DNA of 64,000 bases from Erodium maritimum (Eukaryota > Streptophyta > Magnoliopsida > Geraniales > Geraniaceae): NCBI GenBank assembly GCA_963921825.1, contig OY997588.1:123748715-123812714 (forward strand). The letters are read 5' to 3'. Position numbers and translations under genes: made by a program. A model generated the notes under the pieces. That model was not told the origin of the DNA. It worked only from the letters and a program-made list of their open reading frames with translations, and searched no databases. Positions 10,601-41,976 of this stretch are shown here, in pieces. Every line of letters begins with the position of its first letter. Position 1 is the stretch's first letter.

Positions 10601-12873
10601 TTTTAATAGGGGTATATGTGTTTGATTAATTAAGTCAGATAAAAAACATAAGACCAGTTCGAAAATAAGCAAACAGACACAAGGGGCATTTCTCGATAAA
10701 ATCCAAGTATAAGAGTGGATCCCCCTCCAGACATATTGGAAGGTGATCCGGTACACATGGATGCATAACCAAAGTATTACCAAACAAAGTGCATAAAAGA
10801 GAACCAACGCAACGTTGCTCTAGGGCACCAAAAGCAGGAGATTAAATCCCGGTAAAGGGGGTTGTCCTGCCTTGCGGGGGAATCAAGTGTACCTTCCCAG
10901 AGAAACAAGTTCGACCTAAAGGTATCCATGTTTCCTGGAGAGGAGAGTAATCCATAATCCCCGCTTTTTCTCCCGCCTATCATATCGACTGACGGGGTTG
11001 TTTTCCAGCCCGCGCTGAAAGCTTCGGTTGAGATTCCTGTAAGTGTTCCCCCCCTAGGCTTGGAGGGGAGAGTTGTTGGCTAGACCACTTTAACGACCGA
11101 GGTGAAGAGGACTTCCATGCATAGGCCGCTCCCCCGTAGTCCAAAGAGTCAGAGAAATAGTTGTGTCGTTCCTGCAACTCTCTGCTCGGGATTCTAGGGT
11201 AGAGGGGGTGGTAGACCTTCTGGCGTCCCTAACGAATTTGTCTGGCTCTGGCTTGAATTACTTCTCGGGGGAGTTGATGTGCTCGGGCCTTTGACGCTTC
11301 TTGTAGGAAGGTGGAGAGGAAATGACGCTGGTCAGGTGGTATGATAGGTGGAGTAGGATGGGCTGATACTGGACATACAACCGGTCCCTTCCTCCTAACC
11401 TATTCGGACTCGTTTCCTCCATTCTTGTGGATCTCCAAGTTAGAGATATTAGGCATAACTAGGAGGTTTAGGACAATTGTGGGTTCTCCGAAAGCGCTTG
11501 CGGCTTGACCTTGGATGTTGTCCCTCTTGTGAGTTGTACAAGGAGCCCTTTCACCTTCAAAAAAGGAGACAAAAGCGGCACTACAGGTGTATCAAGCAGA
11601 GGACCCAAGGACGAGGAAACTTGACAGGTAGCAAGACCCGAAGACGAAGACTCCTGCAGATGGGTCTATACCCGTAACTTCTTAGCTCTCAAATCCTCCT
11701 TGTATCTGATCGCCTGGAAACTTACCCCCGACAGGGAAGTAGTGCATGCAATAGCTTGATGATCGAGTCGCCCGCACTTGGCGCAGAATGGTGGGAGGTG
11801 GTCATATTCCTGCCTGGCCTTAAAAGGTGCATGGGAGGTGTCGAGTTGGAGCAGGAGGTGACACCTTATGGGTTGCATGGCATCAAGTTCAAGGCGTAAC
11901 CCCAAAAAAGGAAACCATCCATTCTCGAAACTAGCTGATGCAAGGTAAGAGGGAACGACGCCTCCAACTTCCTTCCCCAGTTGCGAAACTAAGAAGTCCC
12001 TCACCTCTTTAGTCCTCAGCGAAATGGGACATCGAATAAGCGGACGAGGAACGGAAGTTCCGAAAGACGAGGTCCTTTGGCTGGGCTCGAGGCGGTAGTG
12101 GGTTAGTAACAAGATAGTCCCAAACAGTCGTCATGGCTCCTGGTTCCAGATAGAGTCAAGGGAGGCTTGGGAAGGGAGGAAAAATGCTACCACATGCTCC
12201 GATAAGGGTTGGAAAGTGATATTTGGAAACCCATAATTATTTTTTACAACAAATCCCAATGCATACAGACCTATGTTCTTGGGAACGAGAAGACGAGCAG
12301 CAAGGGAATACCTAAAACGAAAGTCATCTATGCGGGGAATGACGCTATCAGGCACTTGGATAACAGTGTCGTCCTCGTCGAAAGCATCCCGGACCAAGCC
12401 ACTTGAGGGGATCGCATGGTTTGGCTCAATTTGAGATCCAACTCAACAGAACTGCGGTTCTGAGGGTGGTATGGTGAGTTACTTCCACCATTAAGCTTTT
12501 TCATGGCTTTCCACGGGGGCAAATTGTAGGAGATAGAGAGAGGCTTAGGCTTAGAGGGATGGGTGTGGGGAGTTTGGGGTTCATAAAAGCGCTGGGAGCG
12601 AGTTTTCGTTCGTCCAGCTATAAGGGAAGGCTTCCCGGGTCATTGATTCGGAGTAGGAATAGTGATGTCGGTTGAATAATCTAGACGATGAGGGGGAGAA
12701 TTATCATATGAGAAGACAGTTGGAGATGAGGATCGGTCACTCTTGACGGAGGAGGCTGAACAAGAGGAAGACGAAGCCATCAACTCCGGTTCTCGGGAAG
12801 GAGGAAGAAACGAAGAGACGGTTGATAGGGAGCGTATGCGTAGGGGGAGGGGCTCTGAATGTTCAAAGTAAAT
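10601..12873 (-). mobile_element. ORF1-only L1-like retroposon, copy C
   Basis: A perfect 13-bp duplication AAGTTTTATCCTT flanks the element (10588-10600 and 12874-12886). Reading on the minus strand: about 93 bp of leader, an ORF1-type gene from ATG 12780 to about 10980, roughly 380 bp of 3' UTR, and a short A-rich tail at 10601-10605. There is no ORF2 (endonuclease, reverse transcriptase). It is related to copies A and B in the DUF4283 part but has a different 3' UTR, so it is another subfamily. Confidence 0.8.
10980..12780 (-). pseudogene. LINE ORF1-type protein, decayed (DUF4283 + zinc knuckle)
   Basis: Starts MASSSSCSASSVKSDRSS at 12780. The DUF4283 region lies mainly at 12397-12131 (FRFRYSLAARLLVPKNI), continues at 12112-11666, and ends with an intact CX2CX4HX4C zinc knuckle (CAKCGRLDHQAIAC) near 11770. 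The protein is spread over several frames with internal stops. Such ORF1 proteins bind the retroposon RNA; here the product would be truncated. Confidence 0.75.
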
Positions 12874-13043
12874 AAGTTTTATCCTTCTAATTTGTTTACT
12901 TTTGTTGGCCCTCCATTTTCGGTCTTCCATTTGATGACGCGTCTGTGTTTTAAATAAACAAAAGTGAAAATTAAAATATTAAATTATGTTACTTTTATGG
13001 AGGTAAAACTCTCCTCGCTTCAAACCACAGTACCAAATTGTAA

Positions 13044-14793
13044 GAGCACGCACAACGGGCCGGTCCTCGGGTCGGCCCACTGTGGGCCGGATTTCACGCG
13101 GTCCGCGGCCCGGGCTTTGCCCCTCGCTCCTCGATCGCGGGCTGGGATCGCGCCCCTCGCCCCTGTCTGGCTCCCCTCCTCTCGTGTGCTGACACGTGGC
13201 AAGTCCGACCATTTTACAACAGTCGGCAACGGTTATTTTTTTTAATTAAATCAAAAACATTTTATACCCTATAAATATCACAACCCCAACCTAATTTTTT
13301 TCACACACATTCTCCAATTTCACTCTCTCATTCCCACATTCAAGTCTCTATAATTTCCAAAATGTCCGACGATGAGGTTATGTTCGACGTTGAGGTTCCG
13401 ACATACGAGGAGCTGGCTGCCCGAATGCTGACGTATGAGGAGATGGCAGTCCAACTGCCGACATATGAGGATATGGCAGCCTGAATGCGGCCAATTGAGC
13501 GACGACTCCGGCAGAGGATTGAGAGGAGAATGCAGAGAGCAATGCCAAGGATCGAGAGGGCCGTCTGTGGGGAACTAATGCGACGAGAAATTAACAGAGG
13601 TCGTGTTGAAGTCCACAACCAATTGATGAGGAACTATTTTTTCGATCAACCCGTATATGGCCCTGATATGTTTAGGCGTCGGTTCCGTATGTGCAGACCA
13701 CTTTTTCAACGGGTTATGAACGCGGTCAAGGAACATGAAAGGTAGTTCGTTCAGAAGCCCGGCGCGGCCTCACGGTCGGGCTTATCAACGGAACAGAAGT
13801 GCACCACCGCGATACGGATGTTTGCGTATGGGTCCTCGGCCGATTCAGTGGACGAAACTCTGCACATTGGGGTAAGCACTATACTTGAATGTTTACGTAA
13901 GTTTTGCAAGGCCTTCATTGAGGTATTCGGAGCCGAGTACGAGCGTACACCCACATCGGCTTGACTGCATGCATTGGAAGTGGAAGAACTACCCAACTGA
14001 AGACCAGGGAGCCCATAGATGGTGAAGTCACCACGGGGACAAGCCGGTTATGCTTGAAGCTGTAGCGTCCCGTGATTTATGGATTTGGCATGTGTTTTTC
14101 GGGATGGCTGGCTCGAACAACGACATCAACGTCCTTAACCACAACCACTTATTCCAAGACGCTTACTACGGCCGTGAGCTAGATGTGGAGTACGTTATCA
14201 ACGACCATCGGTACGACCGACCTTATTACTTGGTGGACGGCATTTACCCAACATGAGCACGGTTCGTGAAGACTATTCGGCATCCCTACGAGCTCAAAGA
14301 GAAATTGTTTGCTAAATGCCAAGAAGGTGCTCGGAAAGATATTGAAATGGCTTTTGGAGTACTTCAAGCAAGGTGCCACATCATTTCCCGTCCCGCTCGT
14401 TCTTGGAGCCCACACCTTTTGGCTGATATCATGCACACTTGCATCATTCTACACAACATGATTGTAGTCGTTTGTGCTCTTGGAGCTGGTTTTTTGTGGG
14501 TTGTATTACAAGAGGATCAATAAAAGTTCAAGTCACTTTTTATTCTTGTTCAATTTTTTTTTCACATTTGTTTAAATTATAAATAATTTAAACGGTTTCT
14601 GATAAGAATTAAATAAAACAGCAAAATATCAATTAATAACAACTCAACATCCAGTCAACACAGGGCTTCAGCTCCAGATCCTCACCATAGTCTCTCCATT
14701 GCAAAACACTCACTATTCTCAAGCCCCAGGGCCTCACTTTTGTCCAATCATCACAAGGGCCCCAGGGCCTGGGCCTTTCCATTGTACATGCTC
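13044..14793 (+). mobile_element. PIF/Harbinger DNA transposon, copy 2 (distinct family)
   Basis: TIRs GAGCACGCACAACGG and CCATTGTACATGCTC are flanked by TAA on both sides (13041-13043 and 14794-14796). The length is 1.75 kb. The left subterminal 180 bp is very GC-rich (GGCCCGGG-type). It holds a decayed transposase. The TIRs are related to, but distinct from, those of the other two Harbinger copies. Confidence 0.88.
13361..14523 (+). pseudogene. Harbinger transposase, decayed
   Basis: Begins MSDDEVMFDVEVPTYEEL at 13361, with a triplicated T(Y/P)EE-type acidic repeat. Conserved blocks: FRRRFRMCRPLFQRV, first Asp in LDCMHW (about 13963), second in NNDIN (about 14115), and Glu in RKDIEMAFGVLQAR (about 14340). 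There are several internal stops, and sequence is missing between about 13950 and 13960, where the region just before the first Asp is lost relative to the other copies. Confidence 0.85.
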
Positions 14794-15049
14794 TAAATGG
14801 TGTCAACCACGCAACCTTTTTCATTTTTCTCCACAATTATCGCTTCTCAAACACTACGGTAGAAATAGAACATCAAGAGGCTCATTAGCAACCCTGCCTA
14901 AAAGTAAACCAAAAATGGCATAGCAACCCTGCAACTTTAGAGGTTCCTGTTCATAACAATATCTTACAAATTACAATCTAATCTCAACTAAAAAACAATT
15001 CTCCAGCGCCTGTTACACCGCAACAATGGGAGAGAAGACGCAAGATGCA

Positions 15050-15487
15050 TCAAGCACTCCCATCTGCGGGGCCTACAAGGACTCCCTGAGACGAAGCCTC
15101 CTTGAGGTTGCTGTCATCCTTCACTGCACCATCGGATTTTCCGACCCTAATTTTGTACTTGGCCTCGAGCTCAGCAATTTCCTTTTTCTTCCTCTCCAAT
15201 GCCTCATTAAGCCTAGCAATCACTTCCTCAAGTCCCTCTTTGTTACGCTGGACGGCGGGTTGGACATCTTTGATGGTTCTCTCCACCAGGACCCCACCAA
15301 TCATTCGGTAGCATCGCCTGGATTGGTCCAGCGGCTGTATAGCATTAATCACCAAAGAATGCTCGCTCACTTCCATCTCTAGCTCTGTGATTTTCGAATA
15401 GATTTGGTTCAATTCAGACCTCAGAGCACCATACATGTTTGCAACTGCTTGTTCATCTACAGGTTCCCCTGTAGTTCTGCTGGCCAT
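15050..15487 (-). CDS. PFD2: Prefoldin subunit 2
   Basis: 145 residues in a single coding exon, matching the usual length of about 148. The beta-type prefoldin fold is clear: coiled coil (YGALRSELNQIYSKITELEMEV), central hairpin segment (MIGGVLVERTIKDV), second coiled coil (RLNEALERKKKEIAELEAKY), then a loose acidic tail. Prefoldin is a cytosolic hexamer that passes unfolded actin and tubulin to the CCT chaperonin. The ATG at 15487 lies 7 bases after a 3' splice site (AG at 15495-15494); a good donor at 16459 (ACAG/GTAAGC) gives a 966-bp intron inside the 5' UTR, with a first non-coding exon about 16460-16560. The 3' UTR runs towards about 14950. It is intact and surely functional. Confidence 0.95.
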   Translation of the reverse strand: MASRTTGEPVDEQAVANMYGALRSELNQIYSKITELEMEVSEHSLVINAIQPLDQSRRCYRMIGGVLVERTIKDVQPAVQRNKEGLEEVIARLNEALERKKKEIAELEAKYKIRVGKSDGAVKDDSNLKEASSQGVLVGPADGSA

Positions 15488-15493
15488 GATTCT

Positions 15494-16459
15494 CTGAAAG
15501 TAAAGAACAGCATCAATACAATACATATAATTATGCGTGACATTTATAATTTGACCAATTGAGTAATCACAATTCGAACAAGAACACATTTTCATGCACA
15601 AAGGGATGATTGGATTAACTATCCACATTACAGTGGCTACAGAACTAAAAGGAATCTATCACTGTGATTGAACTCCAACAAGGATAGTAAATGAAGCAGT
15701 AGCTATAGCACCAAGCCTAAGGGAACCCTTGTGGTGGGTTCACAAGTAAATACCAATATTTTGCAGAGTCAGACCTTACAGACATAGTTGTCTCGGAAAT
15801 GAACATGAGAAGGTTACAAACTCACTACAAAATGGCTACCCATTATTTACCTAAACCAAACTTATCTCTACAATGACCTAGTTCCTGAGACTAACAGTAT
15901 CAGGAGAACCTCCGCAGATAATACAAACTCAATTTTCTCCTCCAGTCTTACCCGCACAATCTCACATGTTTTAATTTTAACCCTTTGTCAGCTTACTACC
16001 TTTCCGAAGGACCCTAATACTTTTTTTTTCCTCTTCTTTGCATGTTGGTGTGACAAACCTTGCTGGGTTTTGACAGAAAATAAATGACACCATCATAGTT
16101 ACCGAACAGAGATGATAATAAGTCAGATTAATAAAACCCAGAAATATCTAGATTTTACATCCCATCAAACTGTTTCCTTGGTTCAGTTCCTTTTTCCAAA
16201 ATCAATTCTATATGTTGTACATTCAAAACCAACACTCTTTTTCTAGAGCTAAACAATAACCATGACTGTGATTCCAGACTTGTATGCTATATCTATGCTG
16301 ATCCAAAATTCTAGGTTAATTTCCTAAAATGATGATGAAAACCAGTTCAGAGAGTGGTTACTTGCATAAACATGGCAAAGGTACCATCAGATTACAAATC
16401 CACAGACCAAAGATGATATGGAGGCTTGTTGCTACAGAAAGAGAGAGGCTTTTGCTTAC
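15494..16459 (-). other. 5'-UTR intron of the prefoldin 2 gene
   Basis: GT at 16459-16458 and AG at 15495-15494. No coding sequence or transposon was recognised within this 966-bp stretch. Leader introns of this kind often raise expression of plant housekeeping genes (inference). Confidence 0.7.
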
Positions 16460-16736
16460 CTGTTTAAGGATTGACGGAGGCGGGGACGGCAAGAGACGCT
16501 GCGTTCCGGCTGTTGAAGAGAAGTGGAAGCCCGATGGACGATGACCGATGAATAGCACAAATAAATTAGGGGCTATAATGGGCCCTGTGGACCTCCAAAC
16601 CAGATTGTCTGTAAGGGCCATTACGCATCCATTCCACTTTATGCATACGACTATGATTGGCCATTGGATGCTTTGTTCATCACAGATTAAATGATGACGT
16701 TTTCAATTGTTCGTTAATTTTCATCCATAAAAAAAA

Positions 16737-17358
16737 AGGAAAACTCTAGGTCCTAACTTTCTTAAACGTTTCGTTTTAACGTCTTAACCCAGATCAACGT
16801 TTCGTTACAGTTCCATACACGAAAGGTTGGAACTTTTACAAAACAAGATATGAACCGTTCAAATTAACGATTTCGTTAACATAGGAAGTGAAAAGTCGAA
16901 ATTACACTTTTCATTCACGTTAACCTTTCAGCTTCTCTTTCCCAAAATAATGCATTATTTTAAAATTCAGTGTTGAAAATTGTTGGATATGTATACTAAG
17001 TGTTCTAATTGCATGTTTAACGGGCATGGGGAGCTGAAAGGTTAACGTGAATGGAGTTGTAGTTTCGACTTTTCACTTCCTATGTTAACGAAATCGTTAA
17101 TTTAAACGGTTCATATCAGGTTTTGTAAAAGTTCCAACCTTTCGTGTATGAAACTGTAACGAAACGTTGGTCTGGGTTAGGACGTCAAAACGAAGCGTTC
17201 AAGAAGGTTAGGACCCAGAGTTTTCCCTAATTTGAACGGTCCATATCAGGTTTTGTAAAAGTTTCAACCTTTCGTGTATGGAACTGTAACGAAACGTTGG
17301 TCTGGGTTAGGACGTTAAAACGAAACGTTTAAGAAAGTTAGGAACCAGAGTCATCTCT
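16737..17358. mobile_element. Fold-back Mutator-type MITE with a duplicated end
   Basis: Long inverted arms (about 16738-16935 and 17030-17229) start GGAAAACTCTAGGTCCTAAC and end GTTAGGACCCAGAGTTTTCC. A further copy of the terminal ~125 bp of the right arm follows in tandem (17230-17358). Flanks TAAAAAAAA on the left and TAAAAAAAT on the right fit a 9-bp duplication. It is non-coding. Confidence 0.75.
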
Positions 17359-17439
17359 AAAAAAATGTATTAATGACTTTTATTTATAGCCCTCCTTTTT
17401 TATCAACTAATAGAAGAAAAACTTGAATGAAATATTATA

Positions 17440-19082: not shown

Positions 19083-19203
19083 AATATTATACATACATAG
19101 AGCAATATTACAAAATTAGAAACTACAAAATCCTAGGCCTCCATTACAAGAGGCAGAGATGTGTAATTACAAGTGGGACAGGAAAACGGTGGCGTTTAAG
19201 GCA

Positions 19204-19581
19204 TCATCCGAGCAAAGGGAAGCAGGTTTCCCGGAAGTAGGATTGATAGGACAGCATGAAAAAGAGGAAAACAAGAAGAAAGCCAACTCCCCAGGTAGTG
19301 CCGCTGGCCCTGTGCAGCGAGTCTTTCTCCGGGAACGGAAGGTACGAGTAAAAGCTCTGGCCGTCGTCGAAGGCGGAGAGGAGGTGGAGGGCGAGGAGGA
19401 GGAGCAGAGGGGACACCATCAGGACCAGTTTCATCTGCTCCAACACGCTCTCCATGATGGGCTCGTAGTTCACGTACCACGATAAGCCAACGAACGTCAA
19501 CAGTACGAGGAGGAAGAAGCAGAGGTGCGGTGGCAGAGAAGCTTGTGAGTGCTCATTTGAGTAATGATCTCTTTCACCCAT
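19204..19581 (-). CDS. Small plant-conserved membrane protein, three TM segments
   Basis: 125 residues, intronless. Short hydrophilic N-terminus (MGERDHYSNEHSQASLPPH), then three hydrophobic segments at about residues 20-38, 52-70 and 95-112. The blocks SWYVNYEPIMES, FPEKDSLHRASGTTWG and SYQSYFRETCFPLLG recall an uncharacterised plant family of tiny membrane proteins I know only as unnamed; no function can be given. The ATG at 19581 is the first in frame and the stop precedes an AT-rich 3' flank. Short length and the conserved loop between TM2 and TM3 suggest a real gene and not a chance frame. It lies just beyond the 9-bp duplication of the adjacent Mutator element. Confidence 0.75.
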   Translation of the reverse strand: MGERDHYSNEHSQASLPPHLCFFLLVLLTFVGLSWYVNYEPIMESVLEQMKLVLMVSPLLLLLALHLLSAFDDGQSFYSYLPFPEKDSLHRASGTTWGVGFLLVFLFFMLSYQSYFRETCFPLLG

Positions 19582-19969
19582 GTTTCTACGCTGATAGATT
19601 TGTGTTTGTGTCGTTTGAAATATTCGGGAGGAAAATACGTATTTGCTTGAGAAGAAGACGATCTGTGTTCATATAGAGATGAGACGGAGGATGAGGGGAT
19701 GATCATATAGTGCTAATGATGTTGACATGTATAAACTTTGTGTAATGTGTGGTAAGTAACTCACACGCGCTTCATGTAAAGCTTTACTTTCATAATAATA
19801 TATTTCAAGCATTACATTAAAAGGGAAATACACGGGAGCAAGATGGTTAGAAATGGTTTAGGAGAGGTTTTTGGAGGGATGACTTGTTTTCAAGAGTTTT
19901 CTCCTCCCATTTTGTTAAGTGTTTAACATTAAAAGAGGGTCATGAACGGTCTTTAGAAAAGGAGTGGTA
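19582..19969. other. Upstream flank of the small membrane protein gene
   Basis: Moderately AT-rich. It should contain the 5' UTR and promoter of the minus-strand gene that ends at 19204. No other feature was recognised. Confidence 0.4.
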
Positions 19970-19984
19970 AGTTAGGGAAGTTGA

Positions 19985-20140: not shown

Positions 20141-20293
20141 GTTAGGGAAGTTGAATTGGATGTTTTGAAAATAGTTTCGATGATTTGCAATTGATGATTT
20201 GATGTAGTAGAAAGACCTATTGGAGTGGACATTTGGTATTCTTCAATGTTTTAAGAGATATGGTTTTTTTTATCATTGTTGTAATGAGGTTGT

Positions 20294-20835: not shown

Positions 20836-22526
20836 TTGTATGCCTTGTTGTGACTATTTGCAAGGTTTTTTAGCGAATTTTGCCTCTACGCAAACTTCAC
20901 ATTTCGAGAGTTCAGAGGTAGATAACGATGGTATAATAGACATGTCTCTAAGTTGTTTAATTGAAGAAACATTCACATGTCCTAATCTACCATGCCAAAG
21001 ATCAAGAGACTCAGCAATATAAGCGGAAGCGGAAATTTTATTATTGCTCAAGATTACATGATCGACATTAAACAGAAAGAGCCCCCCACAATAATACCCC
21101 TTCCCTAAAAAGTCTTCATTCTTGGAAAACACCACCGTGTCATTCTCTATGACGGTCTTCAAGCCAGCCTTCATCAGCAGCGGTCCAGAGACGAGGTTGC
21201 GTCGCAGGGTAGGGACACAAAGGGCATTACTGAGAACAAGCGTCTTCCCAGATGTCAACTTCAGCATAATCTTCCCACTTACAGCTATCACTGCAGTAGA
21301 GTCGTTTCCCATATGAACCACTTTACCAGGTGCAGTTGGTTCAAACTCATAGAAGAGCTCCCTCGAGTTGCAGAGATGACGGGTGGATGCGGAGTCCAAC
21401 ACCCAGTCAACGGTGTTGTGAACCAGCATAGCCTCAGCAACCACATCAGCTACAATGTTGTCATCTTCAGCAATGTAGGCCCTTGCACCATTCTTCTTGT
21501 GATCTTGACGACCGCCACAGTTCATGCACTGATAGACCTTGTGTCCAGCTTGACCGCATACATAGCACAACATGTTCTACTTCGACTTGTAGATAGCAGA
21601 GGAAGGCTTCACAAATTTGTTGCGGTTGTTGGGAGGTCTTCGCTTGGGAGCTTCCTTGGACTTCGGCTTTGGCTTGAACCTTGACGGACGAGACAGTCCA
21701 CCGGACTCCACTATGTTGGTCTTCACCGATGGAGGTGGTCAAGGTGGGATGAGACTCAGAGCGTCCTTCAGACGGTTCGCTTCCTCAATCTTCATGTGTC
21801 GAATGAGATCTTGAAGCGCCAGATCTTTCTCGATGTGCTTCACGTGGCATCGGTAGTCCTTCCACGACGGTGGAAACTTCTCCAGCAGCACATGAGCGAG
21901 GAATACCTCATTCATGTCCATCCCTTCTTTAACGATGGCCGCGGACAGATCCTCGTAGACGTGAACTTGGTCCATGATTGATCGGTTGTCAATCATCTGG
22001 AACGCAAGCCACTGGCTTACGACGTACTTCTTGTTCCCGGTGTCATCAGCCCCATACTTCTTCTCCAAAGTCTCCCAAATAAATTTGGCAGACTTGTGGC
22101 CAGCAAGCAGGTCAAACAGGGTATTGGATATAGAGTCCAATAGTTGACCACGGGCAACCTTGTTGTCCTTAGCATACTTAAGACGTTTGGCCTCATTGTC
22201 CCTAACAATTGAGGCCACTGAGGGGGTAGATTCACCAGTAACATTAACAGGTACGGGGGGGGGGGGGGGGGGGGGGGGTCCTCAAACATCACATAATCAA
22301 TTTCATGTTGCTCAAAAAAGATAATCAGTTTTTGAGACCAACGACGGTAATTGGTACCGTCGAGTGGCTCAACACGGGGATAAGTACGAGCAGCAACAGA
22401 GGATACGGAATTCATATTAGCATGCATATCAGAGTTCATATTGTTCATGTTCGTCATTACACACAGTTTACGAAATTAACAGGGATTAAAAACAGATTCT
22501 GTAATTAACTACTTTTGCTTCAAAAT

Positions 22527-23451: not shown

Positions 23452-23467
23452 AATACATACTAACATT

Positions 23468-25815
23468 TTTTTTTTGAGGAAATATTGCATTTTATATATT
23501 AAATCATAAGAAACGAGTTCGGTGGGTACCGAAAAGTATCCCATCTACATAACATCCAACTAACAAATTGAAATGTACTGAAAGCAATAAAAGTGGCTCC
23601 TGGTAATGGGTTTGGCGGACGAAGGGGAAATCTGCGGTAGCGTCTGGCGACACCGATACAGCAATCTTCTTCCAACATGGGACGAGGCGAGCCTACCAAG
23701 TTTTGGGGAATACTGGTGGACCTACATCTCCCCCGGGGTGTCACCGTGCGTCGTCCTCCCTTAAACGATAGTGGTAGGGCTCCTGAACGCGGGATTGCTG
23801 ACTCCGGACTGGCAAGGGAGACAAATATCAACTGCAGATGGTGCCATCTCCATCCATCCGCCGGGGAGGGGCCAAAGTTGACCCACCCCTCCCCGGGCTA
23901 CCTCGGACTCATTCCTTCAGGCGGGGGAGCTTGCCCCCCCCCCCCCCCCCCCCCCCGCCGCTACTGCATGTGACCCCCCATCAGACGCTGACGAGTCCTC
24001 TGACCCAATCTGATCTTCCTCCCTGGCCAGCCGCTTCTTCCCAGATAACGACGGACTTCCTTCCTTCCGCTTCAGAGACCTGGTCCCTAGCTGGGGCCCG
24101 GGAGAAGGCCCGAGCCGTAGGTCTGGCCTCCAGGTAGGACCAGTTCGTCCCCGGGATTGCCTTCCCGTGCTTAGCCCTTTCCAGAGCCGAGCGCGGGTCC
24201 GCCGGGGCCCGAAGTGAGTGGCCCCTCATACCACCCGCAACCGGGCAGGACGGGAACCGGTGTCTTGCACAACTGCATCCATAGCAGTGATCTGGTAAGT
24301 GCTCATACGACACAGAGAGTAGCGTTCGTACCTGGGATTCCGACAAGCGGAACCAGATCTGACTCTGTAGTGGGAGGCGGATGTCGGCCCGAATCCGGAC
24401 CCTCATGAAGTCTCCCCAGCACCGTCCAGCAGCATCCACATCCACCGCTTGGCACACTCCTAGAGCGCTCCCGATGCGAAAACCTACTGCCCTGTTCCAG
24501 GCCCCCACAGGCAGATTTGCGACCCTAGCCCAGACGGAAAAGTGGTGGAAACTCAGTTCCCCCACCTGCATATGGGCCCTCAGATCAGTAAACATGACTA
24601 GGGACTCCCAAAACGCCCAGGGTTCCCCCGCGAGCACTCTCTCCCGTTCGCGTGCCGTTCGGAAGAAGAAGCCTACCAGTCCCCCTTCCAGGGGTCTAGC
24701 CTCTACCTTCATTCCCCACAGGTCCTCCATCCTCTCGACCAAGGATCTCCAGAAAAACCGCTTCGACGTCAGCACTTTCGCTGCCAGCGCGAAACGGAAC
24801 TGCATCGTGTCCTGGCCCACGTCCCCAGATGGGACTACCACCTCCGCAATTCGCATCGAAGCCATCTGCTGCCCCAACTCGGGGACCACTCTCCCCTGAT
24901 CCCGACCAGTCTCGGGTTGTTCCCTGTTCAATGTCCGATCAGCACCTCCTGACCTACCCGAGCCATACCGGGCTGCCCAGGTAGCTACGTCTCCCTGCCC
25001 GGCCGGTCCGTCTCTGCCGCCCCGACCTGCCCTAGGGACCCAGTTGCCAGCCCCTCGGCCTCCACGGCGGGCATCTCCCATAAACGATCCCCCGCTTCCC
25101 AGTGCTCGTCCCCGCGCCTCCTCCGGGCCGGTGTCCTCAGGGTGGTGCCCGTCCGTCACCACCGCCTTGCCTTTCGCCCGACGGCGCTCCTGCGCTGCCT
25201 GGGACTCTGGGTACCCCTCCTCCGACTCCGACGGGATGACCACCGGAGCATTGACGTCCTCTCCACCGGTATGCAGCAGACCCGGGGGTCTATAGTGCGT
25301 GCCCCGACGAGCCCGGGACCACATGCCCCTTGCCGGATCTGGATCTCGTCCCGACCCCAGCCTCGTCCTCACGCTTCTGCCTCCACCAGCAGCATCAGGC
25401 CGCCGGGTTGCCGAGAACTCCATGGCCGGGGCCCCATACAGCGGAGCCTCCAGATCCCGTGCCTGGATCGGCACGGTGGTGTCCCTTCCCTCCTCGTCGT
25501 CCCGCTCTGGCCAGATCTCAGCCCTCCCCGCGGTCACGACCTGTCTCCGCCCGGTCTCGCCGGCGTCGACCTGCAGCACAGCCCCCGCCCTCAGGCTCCC
25601 ATCGGCCGCCTGAGACGCATCTGCCAAATTCCCTGATACCGGCATCAATCCCACACCATCTTCACCCCCAGCCGGCGACTCCTCCACCGGATCACGCCAC
25701 AGAGATGAATCACCCGATACACTGGACAACCTCGCCGCCGAGTTCACCATTGTGTCGCACTTTCCGAACCTAGGGTTTGCAGAGAGCAAAGCAGAGGCGG
25801 CACTAGATATTATTT
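23468..25815 (-). mobile_element. ORF1-only L1-like retroposon, copy A (intact)
   Basis: A perfect 16-bp duplication AATACATACTAACATT lies at 23452-23467 and 25816-25831. On the minus strand: a 65-bp leader, one long gene (25750-23981), about 510 bp of 3' UTR, then poly(A) (T run at 23468). No ORF2 is present although both ends are defined, so this is not 5' truncation. The last ~400 bp match copy B closely; for example AGTCAGCAATCCCGCGTTCA is identical in both. Confidence 0.9.
23981..25750 (-). CDS. LINE ORF1-type RNA-binding protein, uninterrupted
   Basis: An open frame of about 590 codons (602 if the upstream ATG at 25789 is used; I chose 25750, MVNSAARLSSVS). The N-terminal half is hydrophilic, Gly/Arg/Pro-rich and probably disordered. 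A DUF4283 domain spans about residues 310-455 (FALAAKVLTSKRFF ... FFFRTARERERVLAGEPW ... FHHFSVWARVANLPVGAWNR). It is followed by a linker and a complete CX2CX4HX4C zinc knuckle (CYGCSCARHRFPSC, about 485-500). DUF4283 plus zinc knuckle marks plant L1 ORF1 proteins, which bind element RNA. GC content is far above the flanks. The antisense strand shows long open frames that are only a by-product of the GC-rich codons. A host gene is possible in principle, but the target duplication and poly(A) argue for a mobile element. Confidence 0.85.
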   Translation of the reverse strand: MVNSAARLSSVSGDSSLWRDPVEESPAGGEDGVGLMPVSGNLADASQAADGSLRAGAVLQVDAGETGRRQVVTAGRAEIWPERDDEEGRDTTVPIQARDLEAPLYGAPAMEFSATRRPDAAGGGRSVRTRLGSGRDPDPARGMWSRARRGTHYRPPGLLHTGGEDVNAPVVIPSESEEGYPESQAAQERRRAKGKAVVTDGHHPEDTGPEEARGRALGSGGSFMGDARRGGRGAGNWVPRAGRGGRDGPAGQGDVATWAARYGSGRSGGADRTLNREQPETGRDQGRVVPELGQQMASMRIAEVVVPSGDVGQDTMQFRFALAAKVLTSKRFFWRSLVERMEDLWGMKVEARPLEGGLVGFFFRTARERERVLAGEPWAFWESLVMFTDLRAHMQVGELSFHHFSVWARVANLPVGAWNRAVGFRIGSALGVCQAVDVDAAGRCWGDFMRVRIRADIRLPLQSQIWFRLSESQVRTLLSVSYEHLPDHCYGCSCARHRFPSCPVAGGMRGHSLRAPADPRSALERAKHGKAIPGTNWSYLEARPTARAFSRAPARDQVSEAEGRKSVVIWEEAAGQGGRSDWVRGLVSV

Positions 25816-25831
25816 AATACATACTAACATT

Positions 25832-32104: not shown

Positions 32105-35100
32105 ATCTCCCACTTGGAGACTGTCCATGAATGTCTTCACTTCACTCCTACTCATGTAACTCCAATAACACCCCAATGCACCATCAATAAGCTTCTGAGG
32201 TAGTGAGACATCTTCCTTCAACTAACCATGAAGGCCAGCTGAAGTTATGCATAACTTCAGCTTCTCCGTTGTAACAACCTTGGTCAACATATCTGCAGGA
32301 TTCTTTGACCCAAGGATTTTCTTCAAGGACAAAGTACCATCATTCATTAATCCTCTAATGAAATGATATCTCAACTGGATATGCTTCATCCTAGCATGAA
32401 ACACAGGATTCTTGGCGAGATGAATGGCGCTCTGACTATCGCTATACAAAAGACTGTCTGCCTGTTTCTTCCCTAACTCCTCCAAGAAATTCTTCAACCA
32501 TATCATTTCCTTTCCAACTTCTGAAATAGCCATGTACTCAGCTTCAGTGGTTGAAAGAGCAACACTCTTCTGCAGTCGAGACATCCAACTAACTACTGTG
32601 CCACCCAAGGTAAAGACGTACCCTGTAGTACTCTTCCTTGTGTCCAAACATCCACCTAAGTCTGCATCAGAAAACCCTTCTAAGATTACATCCTTCTTCT
32701 TGAAATGTAGTGCAACCTTTGAAGTGCCTTTCAAGTAGCGAAACAACCACTTGACTGCTTCCCAATGCTCTCTCCCAGGATTAGACATGAATCTACTAAC
32801 AACTCCCACTGCATGTGCAATGTCTGGCCTTGTGCAAACCATTGCGTACATCAAACTGCCCACTGCTGATGCGTACGGGACTTTAGCCATTTCTTCCTTG
32901 TCTTTATCCGTCTTAGGTGACTGTTCTCGAGTGAGTTTGAAGTGACCTCCCAACGGCGTACTTCTTGTCTTATCATCTTGGAGACTGAACTTGTTCAAGA
33001 TCTTCTCAATATACTTCTCTTGAGATAACTTTAAACTTCCATCAGATCGATCCCTACTGATGCTCATTCCGAGTATTTGCTTCGTTGCGCCTAAGTCCTT
33101 CATCTCAAACTCTTCAGACATATGTCTCTTCAACTTGTTGATTTCTACCATGTTGGATCCTGCAATCAACATGTCATCAACGTATAACAATAATATGATG
33201 TAGGATGCATTGAAATGCTTGACATAACAACAATGATCCATGACACATCTTGAGTATCCACTCCTCATCATAAAATCGTCAAACTTCAAGTACCATTGTC
33301 TTGGTGCTTGTTTCAGACCATACAAACTTTTCTGCAATTTGCAAACTAGGTCTTCACTCCCAGCTCTCTGGAAACCCTCTGGCTGTACCATATAAATATC
33401 TTCGTCAAGATCACCATGTAAGAACGCGGTCTTCACATCTAGTTGCTCTAGATGAAGATCCTCTGCAGCCACGATACCTAACACAAGCCTGATAGTAGTC
33501 ATCTTGACTACTGGAGAGAATATCTCGTTGTAGTCAATCCCCTTCTTCTGTTGAAAGCCTTTGACTACTAACCTTGCCTTGTGCCTCTTGCTACCATCAT
33601 GTTCTTCCTTGACCCTGAACACCCATTTATTTTGTAGAGCCTTTTTCCCAGCCGGTAACTTAGTCAATGACCAAGTTTCATTCTTTTCAAGAGATTTCAT
33701 CTCTTCATCCATGGCTGACTCCCACTTAATCGAATCATCCATTTGAACTGCCTCTGTATAACACTGAGGCTCTCCATTCTCAGTCAACAATAGATAATGT
33801 AGTGATGGAGAGAACCGTTCTGGAGGTCTTGAAACTCTGCTCGATCTCCTCACTTCAGCTACTGGGGTAGCCGGTACTATCTCCTCATTATTTTCTTATA
33901 GTTGACTCTCACTGCCGCCTGTAACATCTTCTATTGTAATATCTTCCAACATTGCTTCTTCCTTGCCTTCGGGTTCTTTAGTGATATCTTGCTCCACACT
34001 CAAGCGATCCTTGTACATAGTGCTTTCACAGAATGTGACATCCCTGCTTCTGATGACTTTCATCTTTGACTCATCCCAGAATCTATACCTCATGTCATCA
34101 GATCCATAGCCAATGAATGCACACTTCTTTGCTTTTGGATCAAGCTTGTCTCTGTCGGAATCCTTTACTCTCACATAAGAAACACAACCAAAAACTCGCA
34201 AATGTTGAAGATTTACCTCTTTTCCACGCCATTCTTCTTCAGGAATCTTGAATCCCAAAGGAACTGAGGGTCCACGATTGATGAGGTATGCTGTTGTGCT
34301 CACTATGTTTGCCCAAAACCTTTTAGGCAATCCTGCTTGAATCCTCATACTCTTCGCCCTCTCGTTCAGCGTTCTGTTCATCCTCTCAGCAACACCATTA
34401 TGTTGGGGCGTCTCAGGCTCAGTCTTTAGCATCCTTATACCATGCTCAGCACAATAATCAATAAACTCATCACTACTATACTCACCACCATTGTCAGACT
34501 TTAAACACTTCACTTTTAAGTCAGTTTCATTCTCAACAGCAGCTTTCCACTTCTTAAAGGTATTAAAAACTTCATCCTTGTGCTTTAGAAAGTAAACCCA
34601 TACCTTTCTTGTGGAGTCATCAATGAAGGTGACATAGTAGCGAGATCCTCCAATGGATGGAACTTTTGTAGGTCCATACACGTCTGAATGCACCATTTCC
34701 AGCTTCTTTGCCTTAGGAGGTTTCCCTGACTTTGCAAAGCTAACTCGTTTCTGCTTTCCGAACACACATGGTTCGCAAAAACTAACCTTCACATTCTTCA
34801 GTTCTGGAATCTTCCCCTTTGAAGCTAATATCTTCATTCCTTTCTCACTCATATGCCCAAGTCGTTGGTGCCATAGAGTTGAAGGATCAGGCCCATCAGT
34901 AACTGCATTAACCTCTTCCACTGGCATCTCTGCCATGTACAAAGTTCCTCTCTTCCATCCTCGAGCAATAATCAAATTCCCTTTTGATACCTTCCATTGG
35001 CCGTTCTTAAAGGTTATACCGTATCCCAAACTGTCCAGATGACTTACATAGATCAACATTCTCCTTATGGTAGGGATATACCTTACATCTTTTAACGTCC

Positions 35101-36137
35101 AAATTGTACCCATGGGAGTTTTGAGATTCACATCTCCTATGCCCGCAATTTCTTCCGTCTCATCATTGGCTAGATGAACTATACCTTTTATAGGTCTAAA
35201 ATTCACTAGCATATTTTTATAATGGGTAGTATGGAAAGAAGCACCTGAATCCATGATCCATGACTCAACCGGGCTTTCTACACAATCAATCAAAGCATCA
35301 TCTTCAAATTCTTCTGTCGCATTCACCGAGTTGTTCTCCTTTCTTTCCTTCTTTGGGTTCGGGCATTGACTCTTGAAGTGGCCAGTTTGTTGACAATTAT
35401 AGCAAGTCACGTCTGCTTTGCTCTTAGATTGTCCTCTCCTTCTGGACTTCGATCTGCCTCGCCCTTTGTTCTTACCCCTTTCATAATTCCTACCTCTTCC
35501 GTCCACGTTCAACACGGAGCCTGACGATTCTCCAGAATTCCTTCTATGAATATCTTCCCCAAGAATCAAGTCTCTTATCCCCTCGAACGACAATTTAGTA
35601 GATCCAGACGAACTACTAACTGCTGTGACGGTTCCTGACCAACTATCAGGTAACGAAGACAGCAACAATAGGGCTTGTACCTCATCATCGAATTTAATAT
35701 CCACTGACACTAATCTGGATAGTATCGTATTAAATTCGTTCACATGATCGGTAACATTAACACCTTCCCTCATCTTCGTATTAACTAATAGACGAATCAA
35801 ATATACCTTGTTTGATGCAGACGGCTTTTCGTACATATTTGATAGCGCCTTTATTAGTCCGTAGGTAGTTGTCTCCTTCATTACGTTGTAGGCAACGTTC
35901 CTTGTTAGTGTCAACCTCACCGCACCAAGTGCTTGTCGATCTAGCAACTGTCAATCGGCCGAACTTAGCTTCTCTGGTTTGATCTCTGACAACGGTTCAT
36001 GTAGCTTCTTCTGGTACAGATAATCCTCAATCTGCATCTTCCAGAATCCAAAATCTTTCCCATCGAACTTGTCGATTCGAACTTTCCCATCTTCTACCAT
36101 TGCTCCCACTTGCCACGAACCTGGCTCTGATACCAGT

Positions 36138-36406
36138 TGTTGGGGTATAACAACGTGGAACAATATTCAAGCAAGAAGAAACCAAGGGAAAATAAGCAAT
36201 CACACAAGAACACAAGAATTTACGTGGTTCGGCAAGTTGCCTACGTCCACGGTCTCACTACTCTCTTCTTATTGCTCCCACAATGAATGAATATTTTGGG
36301 TTTACAAGTACATGGTATTTATAGGAGAAGACAATGGGTAAAATAAGGTAGGAATTAGGTTTCCTAATCATAATAGGAAATATCCTCTAATTGCCTACTC
36401 AAGTCT
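36138..36406 (-). repeat. Copia 5' LTR (partial)
   Basis: The inner 269 bp of the LTR; the outer part is missing where the giant TG...CA element begins. Confidence 0.9.
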
Positions 36407-38948
36407 TGTAAAACCCGCTTCGTTTAAAAGTGTAGTAAAGTGCAATTTGGAAACGTCGAGGTGTGACTTTGTAACAAATAAATTTTTGAAGGAAAAATCA
36501 AAAAAAAAAAGAGAAAAGAGAGAGTGGCAGCAGTGTGGGCCGAGCTCGGATTTGGGCCAGCTCTGGCCCATTCGCATGACCTGCGCGGCCCGGACCACAA
36601 GCCCAACCCAGAACCACGCAGCTCCTCTATAAATAGGGGTCGAAACCCTAAAATGGGTACTGTTCACACCAGCTCCCTCGCCCCTTCGTCTTCCCTCCCT
36701 CCAGATCGGCGCCGGCGACCTGTGAGCTCGCCCTCCCTCTCCGGCCACGCCATCGACCGCGCCGAGCCCTCACCTCTTCCCTCCGAGCTTCAAGCGAACC
36801 TCCCACGGCCAGAATCAGAGCGAGCCCGCCGGAGAACGTGCGACATCTCCGAGCTCGATCTCGCCCGATACCCTCGCCGTCCTCCTCTTCTCCGTGAGCC
36901 ACCGCCGGACAGCCGGCCTAGCGAGCTGGGTAAGGACGAACACCGCCGTCAGAAACCCGAGCTCCGTCGAACTCCACTCGCCGGAGAAGACGAGCCCTCG
37001 CCAGATCCGAACGAGAAACGAGCGTGGGTTCTCACCGGAGCCACCGCCGCCACGACCTCGGGTTCGCCGTGGATCTGCCGCCCTCCTCCACCTCATTCCC
37101 TCGTCAGAGTACCTCACCCGCCGCCGTGGAAGACCGCCGGAGCAACCCTTGCTCGCCGGCGTCATGCCAAGTTCAGGCCATCCTCACCAGGCCAGTTCGG
37201 GCTGGACAGAACCGGGCCCTGGGCCAGAAAGGAAATGGGCCGAGAAGGCCTTGGGCCTGTAAGAAGAATCGGGCCAGCCAGACCAGAAGACGGGCCTTGG
37301 CCCATTGTGGACTCGGGCTTTGGGCCCAGTTGGACTTCAAGACCGGGTCTGGACCAGGTTCGTGTTCGGATCCGGGTCTTCCGGACTGTTAAGGAAACCG
37401 TTTTAATAATCAGACTTAATTAACCGGTTTAACGAATTCAAGGTGAGACTTTGAACTGGAAATTCTTGGTTAAATCAAAGGATCTTTGGACTTTTACCGT
37501 TTGTTTGACTGGGCTTTTCTTTGTCAAAATCTAGACGGGACTTCGCCCGAGATCGAGGGCTTGGACCCGAGCTAGAAGAGCAAAGATCACGCCGGGACCC
37601 GAGTGAAGAACGGAGTAGTGACCACCGGGCTTCATCAAAGCGTTGAGAGGAAGACCTCGAGGTAGGGAAAGCCTTAACCTCTCGTTATGACGCTTAGTAT
37701 GCATGTTAGGTTAATAAAATTGGAAAAGGTCCTAGAAATGCCTATAGGATGCGAATAACTAGCATAATCGTCTTTCAATTCCTAATAACCGGAAGTGTCT
37801 AGTGGTGACCGATTAGGATGCCATTCACTAGTGTAATTCGCTTTCAATACTTGGGATTTGATTGTCTGGTAGAGGAGCCTTGGCAAAGCCCTCGGATTAG
37901 TTGCGTGTTAGGATCACATGCTTGGTCGTTTGATTGCTTAGTGGATAGGCTAAAGAGTCTAATGAAACTAGTGGATTTGCATGTGAAAATGCTCTCTTGA
38001 AGGTTTTTATGATTAGTGGATTATACTCGTACTTGCTCGTTGATTACATTCGAATGATTACTTGATTTACTTGAATGGTTGTTTGGAGCATCGAGTATGA
38101 CTGGTTGTACCGAGCGGTGCAATCAGGTGATCGATGCCCTGGTGGTTCGAAACTGGTAAGTGAACGGTAAGTTGGGATTGTGTGATTGGTGTGCTATGTT
38201 TGCGTGATACGTGTACTGCTCGTTGTGGTGAATTGGTGATGTGTGAGCCATGTGTGGAATTGATTTGGTGGTTGTTGAGCTTATAGTACTTCGTGTTCGG
38301 TTGAGTGCGTATTCAATTATTAACTGCTTATTATTAAACTGTCCAAGTGTATGCTCCCTATGGGAGTAATACCTTGGTTCCCGAGGACATAAAATCCCTT
38401 GGAGACGTTTTTGAGAATCCCGATGATAAGCGCCCCGAAGGGTTGTTTCCGGTCGCCTCAATGTTATGCGTCTACTCTGGATTTGAGGGAAAATCCGAGA
38501 GGACACATTATGTGGATCGGAGGGTGGAGACTTCATGTGCCACGGCATTGGGTGATTTATCTATTACCTATGTTTGTCATGATGTTTTTGGTTGACTTTA
38601 TTGTTGATCTTATTGAGTTGAAGGTCCATCTTGTTATGTGTTTTCCCTACTGAGCGCAAGCTCACCCCTACGAGTTTATTGTTGTGTTTACAGGCTTGAT
38701 AGAGGAGTAGAGGCTCGGGAGCTCTCGGTGTGGGTGTCCTTAGAGACTTCGTTTTTATCTTTATTTCTGTCGAACCAGATTTTGTGGAGATATATTATTA
38801 CACCCCTGGAGGGTTATTCTTGTTTAAACTAGATCATGTGGATTGGAGCTTTTCTATTGGAGGTTTTCAGGATTTAAATGTTGTTTTATTATTTTATTGT
38901 CTTCTATTACTCGTCATGCCTCGAGTCCGGGCGATAACCGGATTTGGG
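36407..38948 (+). mobile_element. Giant TG...CA element, probable solo LTR (copy 2)
   Basis: LTR-type fossil inserted in the Copia 5' LTR. It begins TGTAAAACCCGC; TATA box TATAAATA at 36628-36635 is followed by a GC-rich segment with a long arginine/proline-rich open frame that is probably not a gene. It shares CTCGAGGTAGGGAAAG near 37655 and the palindromic box near 38647 with the other copies. The last bases of the family (GGCGTGACA) are missing at the right, and the remaining part of the Copia LTR does not follow, so a deletion has removed this junction. Confidence 0.7.
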
Positions 38949-39474
38949 TTGGTTCGAGTATCTTTCCGGTTGTAACCACCGAGGGGGTATGACCAGGCCT
39001 ACGGAGGTAGTTGTAACCACTGAGTTCGGACATGACTAGATCCCCTGTGCGAGAAATCGTCCAGGTCGAGGTTCGTGGGATGAGCACAATAAGGATACCG
39101 GAAATGGTCGGAGAGAGAGAGGAGGTTGTCGATTTCTTCCTAGGTTGGAAGGGCTTTATAAAGTCATAAGAGGAGCCAGGGGCATGCACCAAGGTGGCAT
39201 CAGTGGCGGTTTCACAGAGGGGATAATAACATATCTAGGTAGTTCGTCACATGGATAAGGGAAAAACCGAAAATGATTTTTGGGCGAGTGAAGGAGGTAT
39301 GGGTCATTGATAAAGATCGGGGTGTTGTGATTAGTATGAAGAACGACACATGAGAAGGAAACACGATTGAGGAGTCTCCAGAAAAGAAGAATAAGAAAAG
39401 TGGAAACCTAAAAATTAATTTGATGATAATAAATAAATAAAATTGAAGTACCCTAATCGAGTGAACAATGTCAA
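38949..39474. other. Unassigned stretch between two retroelements
   Basis: Moderate GC. It contains a near-repeat of GGTTGTAACCACCGAG / AGTTGTAACCACTGAG at about 38968 and 39009. No protein domain or borders were recognised. Confidence 0.3.
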
Positions 39475-41976
39475 ACCTTAATACTACCTAACTAAGTCGA
39501 AGCTCTCTCTTTCTCTCTCTTCTGGGTGCTAGGGTTAGGGTTTTGCGTGAACTTCTTCCATTTCAATGGCTTTCACGAGTGATATAGAGGGTGGGGAGGA
39601 GTCCTTCGACGGCGTGCAATTCCAGGGATCGCGTCTGTCGGAGGCGGTTGAGCAGGTAACGGAAAACGAGACGGAGTCGGGGACGGTGGCATTAGGGGCT
39701 GCCGTGGGGGACGATCTCGTGATCTCCGATGGTGTTTTGACGGCGCGGGATGAGAACATATCACCGATGCGTTTCTCGGCCCATCGAACGGAGGAGGAAG
39801 GTTGGGTCGTAGGGGGACGGATCCAACCGGTGCCGAGTTGTGTTCGCCGAACTTCGGCGAGAGGCCCACGTCCACGGCGTCTGGGGAGTGGCTCGGGCCG
39901 GAGAGTGCAGGATATCGATGGCGACTGGGGGGCTCTACAGACAGCCGGAGTCGGGGAAGAGAGTTCTCCGTCGTTGCCGAAGTCGGGGAGGGTGGCCCAA
40001 GAGGGTGAGGAAGGAGTCCCGATCCTGGTGTCCTCGGACACGGCAATCACGCCGGAGGAGTCGGTGACGACTGTTGCGTGGAGGAGAAGCAAAGGGAAAG
40101 GACTAGCGGCGCGGGAAGACGCTAGGGTTTTGGTAGAGGACTTGGGTCGGACTGAGGAGCACGTGGGCTTGGGCCGAGGATTAATGGTGGATGCTCGGCG
40201 GGCTGTGAGACAGAGTCTGGGTTGGACCCCGTGGCCTGGATTGGGCCAGAGGCCGTGATGGTCTCGGGTGGGTGGGGATGACGTAGCCCGGTGGGCGGCC
40301 AGGTTTGGAGCAGGTCGGGTCCACGGACCGGGTGAAGAGCAGAATGGGTCGGGGCTGCCCGGATATGGAGCCGGGTCGGGACAGGGTCCGCGAGTGGTGA
40401 AAGGACACAGATCGAACCCGGTTCGTCACCCAACCCAGGCAGATCGACCGGATCTGATGCAGAATGACAACCCGTTTGGACCACAGGGGAGAGATTGGCC
40501 TTCCTCGGGAGAACAAGTCGGGGACTTGGGATCCCAAATGGTCGCCATGAGGATCAAGGAGGTCGTGGTACCGGTTCAGGAGGTCACTGGACGTGGAAAT
40601 CTGTATAGATTCGTGCTGGCAGCTAAGGTCCTAACATCCAAGAAGATTTTCTGAAAGTCAGTGGTAGCGCGAATAGAAGATGTATGGGGAATGAAGGTCG
40701 AGGCAAAACCCTTGGAGGGGGATTTGGTCGCTTTTTTCTTCAAGACAGCTAAGGAAAGGGAAAGAGTGTTGTTTGGTGAACCGTGGTCCTTATGGGACTC
40801 CTTTGTTCTATTTACGGATCTGAGGGCCCATATGCAAGTAAAGGATCTGGAGTTTCATTATTTCTCAGTCTGGGCACGGGTATCGAACTTACCTATGGGG
40901 GCATGGACGAGAGTTGTGGGGTTCAGAGTGGGGAACACGCTGGGGGTCTGCCAAGGTGTGGATGTGGACAAGGAGGGTCTCTGCTGGGGGGACTTTATGA
41001 AGATCAGAATCAGGGCGGATATAATAGTACCTCTACAGAGTCAACTATGGTTTCGACTATCTGTATCCCAGGTACAAACTCGGCTGGTTATTTCTTATGA
41101 ACATTTACCTTAGCACTGTTTTGGTTGTTGCTGTGCGGATCATCTGTTTCCGGTTTTTCCGGTGGTTGGGGGAGTTCGGGGATCATCGTTGAAGGCGCCG
41201 GTGGACCTGAGATCGGCCTGGAGAAGGCAAAACATGGGAAGGCTACCCCAGGGACGAATTGGACATATATGGGAGGTAAGGGAAGAGGGGGCCCCAATCA
41301 GGTGGATCCAAGGACGCCTCCACGGCATCAGGAAATGGGGAGGTATGGTGGCCAGAGGGAAAGGGATGAGGAGATACCGGTAGGATGGCTACCCCGTAAA
41401 CCTTCACCGTCGTTGTTTGGAAAGAAGAGGGCGGAGAGGGATGAGGACCCTGAGGAGGAGGAAGGATCATCGGCGTCTGATGGGGCGTCACAAGTAGCGG
41501 CGGGGGGCTTCAAGCACCCCCGCCTCCAGGAATGAGTGCTGGGGGGCCCAGGGAGGGGTTGGTCGATTGTACCTCCTCCCTGGCAGATAGGTGGCATTGG
41601 TACTGCCAACAGTCGATAAGTTACTTCCCTACCATTTCGGAGTCAGCAATCCCGCGTTCAGGAGCCCTACCACTATCAGTCAAGGTAGGACGACGTACGC
41701 TGACTTACCGGGGAAGTAATCGGTCCACCACTGCAAAGTTATCATTTGATCTGCTCGATCAGTTTCTTATGGTTGGAGCATACTGTATCGGTGTCTCTGG
41801 ATGCTACCATAGTCCCACCCCTCCGACCGCCCTTATGCCCATGAGCAACATTTACTATTCATCAATTGTCTTTCAGTTTTATGTTAGTTTCTTGGTTTGT
41901 ATGGTGCTATTCGTATTAGCGGTCACCAGAATGCTTTAATTTATAATATCATATTTCTGCCTCAAAAAAAAAATTA
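39475..41976 (+). mobile_element. ORF1-only L1-like retroposon, copy B
   Basis: The 11-bp duplication AACAATGTCAA (39464-39474 and 41977-41987) bounds a 2.5-kb element. There is about 90 bp of pyrimidine-rich leader (CTCTCTCTTTCTCTC), an ORF1-type gene, a 440-bp 3' UTR homologous to copy A, and poly(A) at 41964-41973. No ORF2. Confidence 0.85.
39566..41535 (+). pseudogene. LINE ORF1-type protein, decayed
   Basis: Starts MAFTSDIEGGEESFDGV. DUF4283 is at about 40560-41000 (FVLAAKVLTSKKIF, FFFKTAKERERVLFGEPW, FHYFSVWARVSNLPMGAW), followed by a zinc-knuckle region at about 41115-41150 that has lost its last Cys compared with copy A. Three in-frame stops (near 40256, 40652 and 41111) and a frameshift after 41113 break it. 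The stop at 40652 replaces a Trp of copy A. Otherwise the frame is conserved along its whole length. Confidence 0.85.

Follow-up and report, generated by a model that had tools for sequence, protein, structure and literature searches.

The 64-kb window of the Erodium maritimum genome analyzed here (contig C1:123748715-123812714 of a 763-Mb assembly in 40 contigs) contains three insertions, A, B, and C (Table 1), which a sequence-only reading had described as plant counterparts of HAL1, the mammalian element that carries only the first open reading frame (ORF1) of an L1-type long interspersed nuclear element (LINE). Our results confirm that B and C belong to multi-copy ORF1-only families with coinciding ends, in which the second open reading frame (ORF2) is absent. 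These two related families are probably copied by the L1-type endonuclease (EN) and reverse transcriptase (RT) of another element, most likely of a lineage that has ORF2 only. This confirmation does not extend to A, whose 3' end has just two other matches. The families were searched for genome-wide, and only the best candidates of each search were scored, so the copy counts given below are lower bounds. Loci fetched from the same genome are labeled L012-L040, and C1, C2, C3, and so on in coordinates denote contigs.

B and C as multi-copy families without ORF2

The 3' 501 bases of B gave 2895 first-look candidates genome-wide, and the best 40, which were scored, were 91-100% identical. The 5' ends gave 119 first-look candidates for B and 277 for C. 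Of the 40 scored matches to the B 3' end, 39 were loci other than window B. Upstream DNA was fetched for 20 of them, and 15 of these 20 loci proved to be complete B copies sharing this 3' end. Fourteen of the 15 start within about 10 bp of base 28 of B (GTGCCGCCTCTGCTTTGCTC or close to it), and the other, L026, starts at base 48. Comparison with other copies places the canonical 5' starts of B and C somewhat inside the ends first given for them, and the extra bases vary among copies. L012 matches B from base 1205 only, its 5' part apparently lying upstream in a pair spanning 13.6 kb, and L020, L022, L025, and L028 have only the last 480-670 bp in common with B. The B copies are grouped, identity reaching 97.5% between nearest pairs, and their divergence from B is 7-17%.

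Matches of 5'-end and 3'-end queries were then joined by coordinates, separately for B and C. Short spans were found for 24 of 25 B pairs (2.29-2.50 kb) and 15 of 21 C pairs (2.31-2.49 kb), including the window copies. With a query spanning the ORF1 stop of C, the stop was crossed into the tail without a break in all of the best 40 matches, which were scored, and the spans were within 20 bp of the matched query part. ORF2 sequence was seen only in the chimera L020 among the 20 fetched B-tail loci, as a 5' fragment, and at none of the 40 scored ORF1-tail junctions of C. The sequence-only reading had held that it would fail if ORF2 proved to separate ORF1 from the tail in most copies, and the pairs and junctions show the opposite. 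With several copies, ORF1 alone, and coinciding ends, B and C have the features of HAL1-type elements, and they do not have the EN and RT of an ORF2 within the element that mark an autonomous L1-clade plant LINE. An origin of the copies from two-ORF LINEs by separate internal deletions or by splicing of the RNA, with ORF2 lost copy by copy and no ORF1-only lineage at all, is extremely improbable as an explanation. Deletions or template jumps do happen, as seen from the composites L020, L022, L025, and L028, but the junction and the ends coincide across dozens of copies, the junction is common to B and C, and the scarcity of ORF2 sequence at these loci also speaks against such losses.

B and C are homologous over ORF1 and tail, with 69-72% nucleotide identity, and A gave no blastn match to B. 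The subfamilies proposed from the sequence alone, with a 3' untranslated region (UTR) common to A and B and a different one in C, must therefore be abandoned.

Target site duplications (TSDs) were tested in window B and 15 further B copies with up to 200 shifted-flank controls. Eleven of the 16 copies have, in the expected position, their own TSD of 8-16 bp, unreached by any control, and that of one of them, L017, consists of AT repeats. For the 16-bp TSD of window B, the longest match among the controls was 11 bp. The duplications are thus reproduced at other copies, contrary to the second pattern named as evidence against the proposal. The TSDs of A (13 bp) and C (11 bp) are also exact, and were identified by reading alone, the controls being for B only. 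A TSD together with poly(A), as in HAL1-type elements, is present in the 11 B copies and, by reading, in window A and C. Between the TSD and the canonical start, the B copies have 4-26 extra bases that are different in every copy, and C has about 19, judged from where its best 5' matches begin. Elsewhere, such extra bases number about 37 in L031, which carries ORF2 only, about 63 in the chimera L020, and 18 in the composite L040.

Selection on ORF1 and conservation of the tail

Between B and C, 249 ungapped codons of ORF1 showed 65, 58, and 147 differences at codon positions 1, 2, and 3, with proportions of nonsynonymous (pN) and synonymous (pS) differences of 0.22 and 0.80. Across the 16 B copies, codon positions 1, 2, and 3 gave rates of 0.043, 0.030, and 0.145 in the DUF4283 block, and 0.103, 0.123, and 0.190 in the N-terminal half of ORF1, these figures being pairwise, non-independent counts that ignore CpG decay. 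Judging from these patterns, ORF1 is under purifying selection, in the comparison of B with C as well as among the copies of family B.

The tail behaved differently. The rates among the 16 B copies were 0.043, 0.049, and 0.032, and 125 codons of the tail read in one frame gave 44, 48, and 49 differences by position between B and C. The tail is thus conserved, yet not as protein, because its substitution rates show no codon period. The B-C alignment continues past the end of ORF1 (its stop) and on along the tail, so the common ancestor of B and C was already without ORF2, and ORF1 was constrained while it stood in ORF1-only elements. Such a selected ORF1 in ORF2-less ancestors is the strongest evidence for a lineage rather than debris.

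In both B and C, a roughly 137-codon open frame begins at an ATGA overlapping the ORF1 stop (window 23912 and 41532). This frame was rejected as a second gene on the basis of the position counts between B and C, a ratio of nonsynonymous to synonymous substitution rates (dN/dS) of 0.75-0.89 across the three frames, and the lack of a period within family B. Window B's own copy of the frame has a stop at codon 5. In addition, a long G-run (element strand) lies near the 3' end of B ORF1 at window 23934-23957, and its length differs among the copies read. A structure prediction for DUF4283 from two window sequences had a mean predicted local distance difference test score (pLDDT) of 36.6 and was not used, and a PDB sequence search for DUF4283 relatives returned none (best E 0.87).

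An ORF2-only L1-type lineage

The LINE part of the chimera L020, used as a query, led to the LINEs L029-L032. Among them, L031 has a 13-bp TSD, a leader of about 0.5 kb, an ORF2 that extends to the RNase H end with frame breaks in this copy, and a 3' UTR of about 60 bp. L033, which is 69% identical to L031 at the DNA level, has an ORF2 open over 1373 codons with EN, RVT_1, zf-RVT, and RVT_3, and DUF4283 is absent. Its TSD is only 9 bp, and TSD lengths in this lineage are known for L031 and L033 alone.

A 5' start about 0.4-0.65 kb ahead of ORF2 was found at 25 loci (12 and 13 further ones with two queries, the best 40 matches being scored for each), and by this distance there is no ORF1 within the defined ends at these loci. 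At six further loci, at least most of a 0.36-kb leader precedes ORF2 (best 40 matches scored, with a query that starts inside the leader and so does not fix the 5' ends). The remaining scored matches of the three queries covered one side only and were uninformative, except for seven head-only matches. No spacing between 5' start and ORF2 wide enough for an ORF1 was seen among the scored loci. DUF4283 was also absent in all four further upstream regions, L035-L038, which were chosen for missing the L031 leader; the usual GGCCCTAG start is present in those of L036 and L037 and absent in those of L035 and L038. Over 891 codons, the ORF2 sequences of L031 and L033 showed 192, 109, and 497 differences by codon position (pN 0.15, pS 0.80), which marks the ORF2-only form as old and selected. 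Taken together, an L1-type lineage with EN, RT, zf-RVT, and RNase H behind a leader, and with no ORF1, seems to be present in this genome.

Some further features of these loci are worth recording. The motif GGTAAG, which resembles a splice donor, recurs by eye about 100-250 bases into the leaders of L029-L032, L035-L038, and L039/L040, and a spliced leader or a retained intron is possible. An antisense DUF4283 fragment (E 2e-5 against the L034 domain) lies at L031:7555-7716, about 0.9 kb downstream of the L031 element and outside it, and an antisense B-like tail fragment lies at L033:7009-7272, just downstream of L033.

Chimeras, composites, and the likely helper

Several insertions combine sequences of the two kinds. 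In L020, a LINE 5' part including the start of the endonuclease (89% identical to L029) and the B tail lie within a single 13-bp TSD. L039 and L040 are 97% identical to each other over 1579 bp. Their head is like the 5' ends of ORF2-only LINEs (72-80% identity to L036/L037), their tail has 76% identity to the last 250 bp of B, and no DUF4283 or ORF2 match of note was found in them. L040 has a TSD of 17 bp, and none was found for L039. Both are among the seven head-only matches of an ORF2-lineage query. The two copies, L039:94-1670 (C2:6190050) and L040:93-1670 (C2:44621330), represent a third family of 1.57 kb, and four matches of that query end at the same head position. L025 and L028 contain a short stretch like the N-terminal part of C (76-79% over 71-80 bp), and the head of L022 matches neither B nor C nor any of the LINEs compared. 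All three of these loci are flanked by TSDs, listed for the trio as 17, 14, and 16 bp.

These joins suggest that RNAs with B-type tails and RNAs of the ORF2-only lineage met during reverse transcription. Because single TSD-flanked insertions connect the 5' end of the ORF2-only lineage to a B-type tail, this lineage (L031, L033, L036, L037, and others) would be the likeliest helper of B and C. In the mechanism that we propose, a B or C element would be transcribed and its RNA translated into the ORF1 protein with DUF4283 and zinc knuckle. The protein may bind RNA, as its zinc knuckle and the role of ORF1 in LINEs suggest, and the B or C RNA would be packaged. An L1-type ORF2 protein from another element would nick the target, consistent with the TSDs and poly(A), and target-primed reverse transcription would begin, in trans, at the poly(A) end of the conserved tail of about 430 bp.

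Another candidate helper is a LINE with both reading frames. L034 encodes DUF4283 and a zinc knuckle, followed by a full ORF2, and at least three co-located DUF4283/zf-RVT pairs, L034 included, were found when the 150 best DUF4283 places were crossed by eye with the 150 best zf-RVT places. B and C could accordingly be HAL1-like parasites whose RNA is copied in trans by the ORF2 protein of such a LINE, the ORF2-only lineage being unrelated. This is consistent with mammalian HAL1, an ORF1-only L1 derivative according to PMC5753468, and with the B tail being as similar to the tail of L034 as to those of the ORF2-only elements (z 0.2-3.7 against shuffles for the tails of B, C, and L039 versus L031, L033, and L034). 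However, both kinds of LINE chimera (L020 and L039/L040) join the ORF2-only lineage, not the L034 type, to a B-type tail, and the DUF4283 block of B is just about 34% identical to that of L034, the one two-ORF LINE read. Parasitism on the L034 type is therefore rather unlikely.

The system is bipartite if the ORF2-only LINEs depend on a supply of ORF1 protein. ORF1-only elements (B and C) and ORF2-only elements (the L031/L033 lineage) would then transpose separately, each selected for its own gene and kept by the protein of the other, and composites of the L039/L040 type would exploit both. A LINE divided in this way between two elements is a plausible idea but an unproven one, and we put forward this division of labor tentatively. 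If the ORF2-only LINEs do not need ORF1, then B and C are HAL1-like passengers that borrow them, and ORF1 would aid its own RNA, being selected since its product favors the RNA that encodes it. This may also be the case: in PMC2666806, Alu is said to depend on ORF2p, and composites without DUF4283 have moved. By itself, however, borrowing does not account for families with ORF1 alone and families with ORF2 alone having persisted side by side, each showing a pS of about 0.8.

Several observations weigh against the view that B and C are ORF1-only families served by the ORF2-only lineage. Six of the 21 C pairs are longer (3.9-7.3 kb) and come from five loci known by coordinates only. Four of these loci (C4:6912901, C8:39853503, C4:28910715, and C9:49.34-Mb) have an unbroken ORF1-to-tail stretch, so their extra DNA sits in the 5' half, and the extra DNA of about 1.7 kb at the fifth (C3:15249944) is too little for a whole ORF2. 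By the control test, a convincing TSD was absent in 5 of the 16 B copies (L019, L021, L023, L026, and L027), although a wider search gave a 13-bp match for L019. An in-frame stop is present in 12 of the 16 B copies (530 codons examined), and present activity is therefore undemonstrated; the non-independence of the counts within family B belongs here as well. Two-ORF LINEs such as L034 are also present and could be the helper, a choice that the tail scores of B do not decide, and the chimeras could also come from a two-ORF enzyme switching between RNAs. Finally, the movement of composites without DUF4283 implies that ORF1 in cis is not strictly required.

The insertions and other elements in the window

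All three insertions lie where the sequence-only reading had placed them, and their TSDs were verified as exact duplications. The ATG near the 5' end was likewise found, about 65 bp (B), 91 bp (C), and 93 bp (A) from the 5' junction, and no endonuclease or reverse transcriptase was seen among the ORFs of A, B, and C. The single DUF4283 and zinc-knuckle gene ascribed to each insertion was recovered in part. DUF4283 was recognized by Pfam in B and C, the zinc knuckle of B scores 17.8 bits against a Pfam cut-off of 27 bits, and the reading frame of the window copy of C is interrupted ahead of the zinc knuckle, so that the Pfam result covers DUF4283 only. In A, DUF4283 likeness was detected by tblastn only, at 22-27% identity and with stops and frame breaks.

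Table 1. Positions of insertions A, B, and C and of their parts in the 64-kb window.
Feature	Position	Strand	Details
Element A, decayed ORF1-only LINE insertion	10601..12873	-	TSD AAGTTTTATCCTT, 13 bp, at 10588-10600 / 12874-12886; DUF4283 likeness by tblastn
Element B, ORF1-only LINE, multi-copy family	23468..25815	-	TSD AATACATACTAACATT, 16 bp, at 23452-23467 / 25816-25831; canonical 5' start ~25803
Element C, ORF1-only LINE, multi-copy family	39475..41976	+	TSD AACAATGTCAA, 11 bp, at 39464-39474 / 41977-41987; canonical 5' start ~39494
B ORF1, DUF4283 and zinc-knuckle region; ORF1 ATG at 25750	24242..24730	-	Pfam DUF4283 E 8e-15; zf-CCHC_4 below cut-off
B 3' tail after ORF1 stop, poly(A) end	23468..23911	-	Common to composite elements; homologous to C tail
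C ORF1, DUF4283; ORF1 ATG at 39566; window copy with stops	40679..41011	+	Pfam DUF4283 E 4e-14
C 3' tail, poly(A) end	41536..41968	+	Homologous to B tail

Of the two other genomic matches to the A 3' end, one is 77% identical over most of the query and the other is a short fragment. On these matches, A is a decayed, nearly single-copy relative rather than an evident family. TSDs and poly(A) are also compatible with processed copies of a host DUF4283 gene, that is, a domesticated ORF1, made by LINEs, and A could be such a copy. As an account of the families this is very unlikely, since the B copies are grouped in the way expected if copies beget copies, and no intron-bearing source gene was seen, though none was specifically sought.

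The window also contains ORFs that resemble a Ty1/copia polyprotein at 32222-35947 and 20854-22218 (by eye from the translation), and two copies, at 4260-4988 and 53758-55119, of what we take to be a PIF/Harbinger-like transposase protein.

Relation to known elements and significance

In mammals, HAL1 coexists with two-ORF L1. Short interspersed nuclear elements (SINEs) and SVA-like composites are non-autonomous, have a common 3' tail, and are mobilized by LINEs. L022, L025, L028, L039, and L040 look like such composites, whereas B and C differ from them in encoding a selected protein. In PMC5753468, HAL1 is characterized as a derivative of L1 that is non-autonomous, has coding capacity for ORF1p only, and arose several times independently in mammals. 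B and C are likewise ORF1-only and non-autonomous, but they occur in a plant, their ORF1 encodes DUF4283 and a zinc knuckle, and their possible helper is itself without ORF1. Being plant L1-type elements with a DUF4283 ORF1, they are HAL1 analogues and not HAL1 members, which descend from mammalian L1 and have a mammalian-type ORF1p. Celine of poplar has a DUF4283 ORF1, EN and RT in ORF2, poly(A), and TSDs of 10-30 bp, according to PMC11288735. Celine unites the two ORFs in a single element, in contrast to B and C, which have ORF1 only, and to the L031/L033 lineage, which has ORF2 only. A search of the titles and abstracts of open-licence PMC articles, which did not extend to Repbase or subscription papers, found no description of plant L1 elements with ORF1 only or with ORF2 only.

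For genome annotation, these results are a warning: among plant "DUF4283 proteins" there may be some that come from half-LINE copies and not from host genes. If true, the bipartite reading would mean that a genetic parasite usually found in one piece has come apart into two. The reason why LINEs carry both reading frames on a single RNA, and the need for ORF1p to work in cis, have long been debated. A natural experiment on these points would be offered by dozens of ORF1-only copies whose ORF1 is selected, coexisting with an ORF2-only lineage of long standing.

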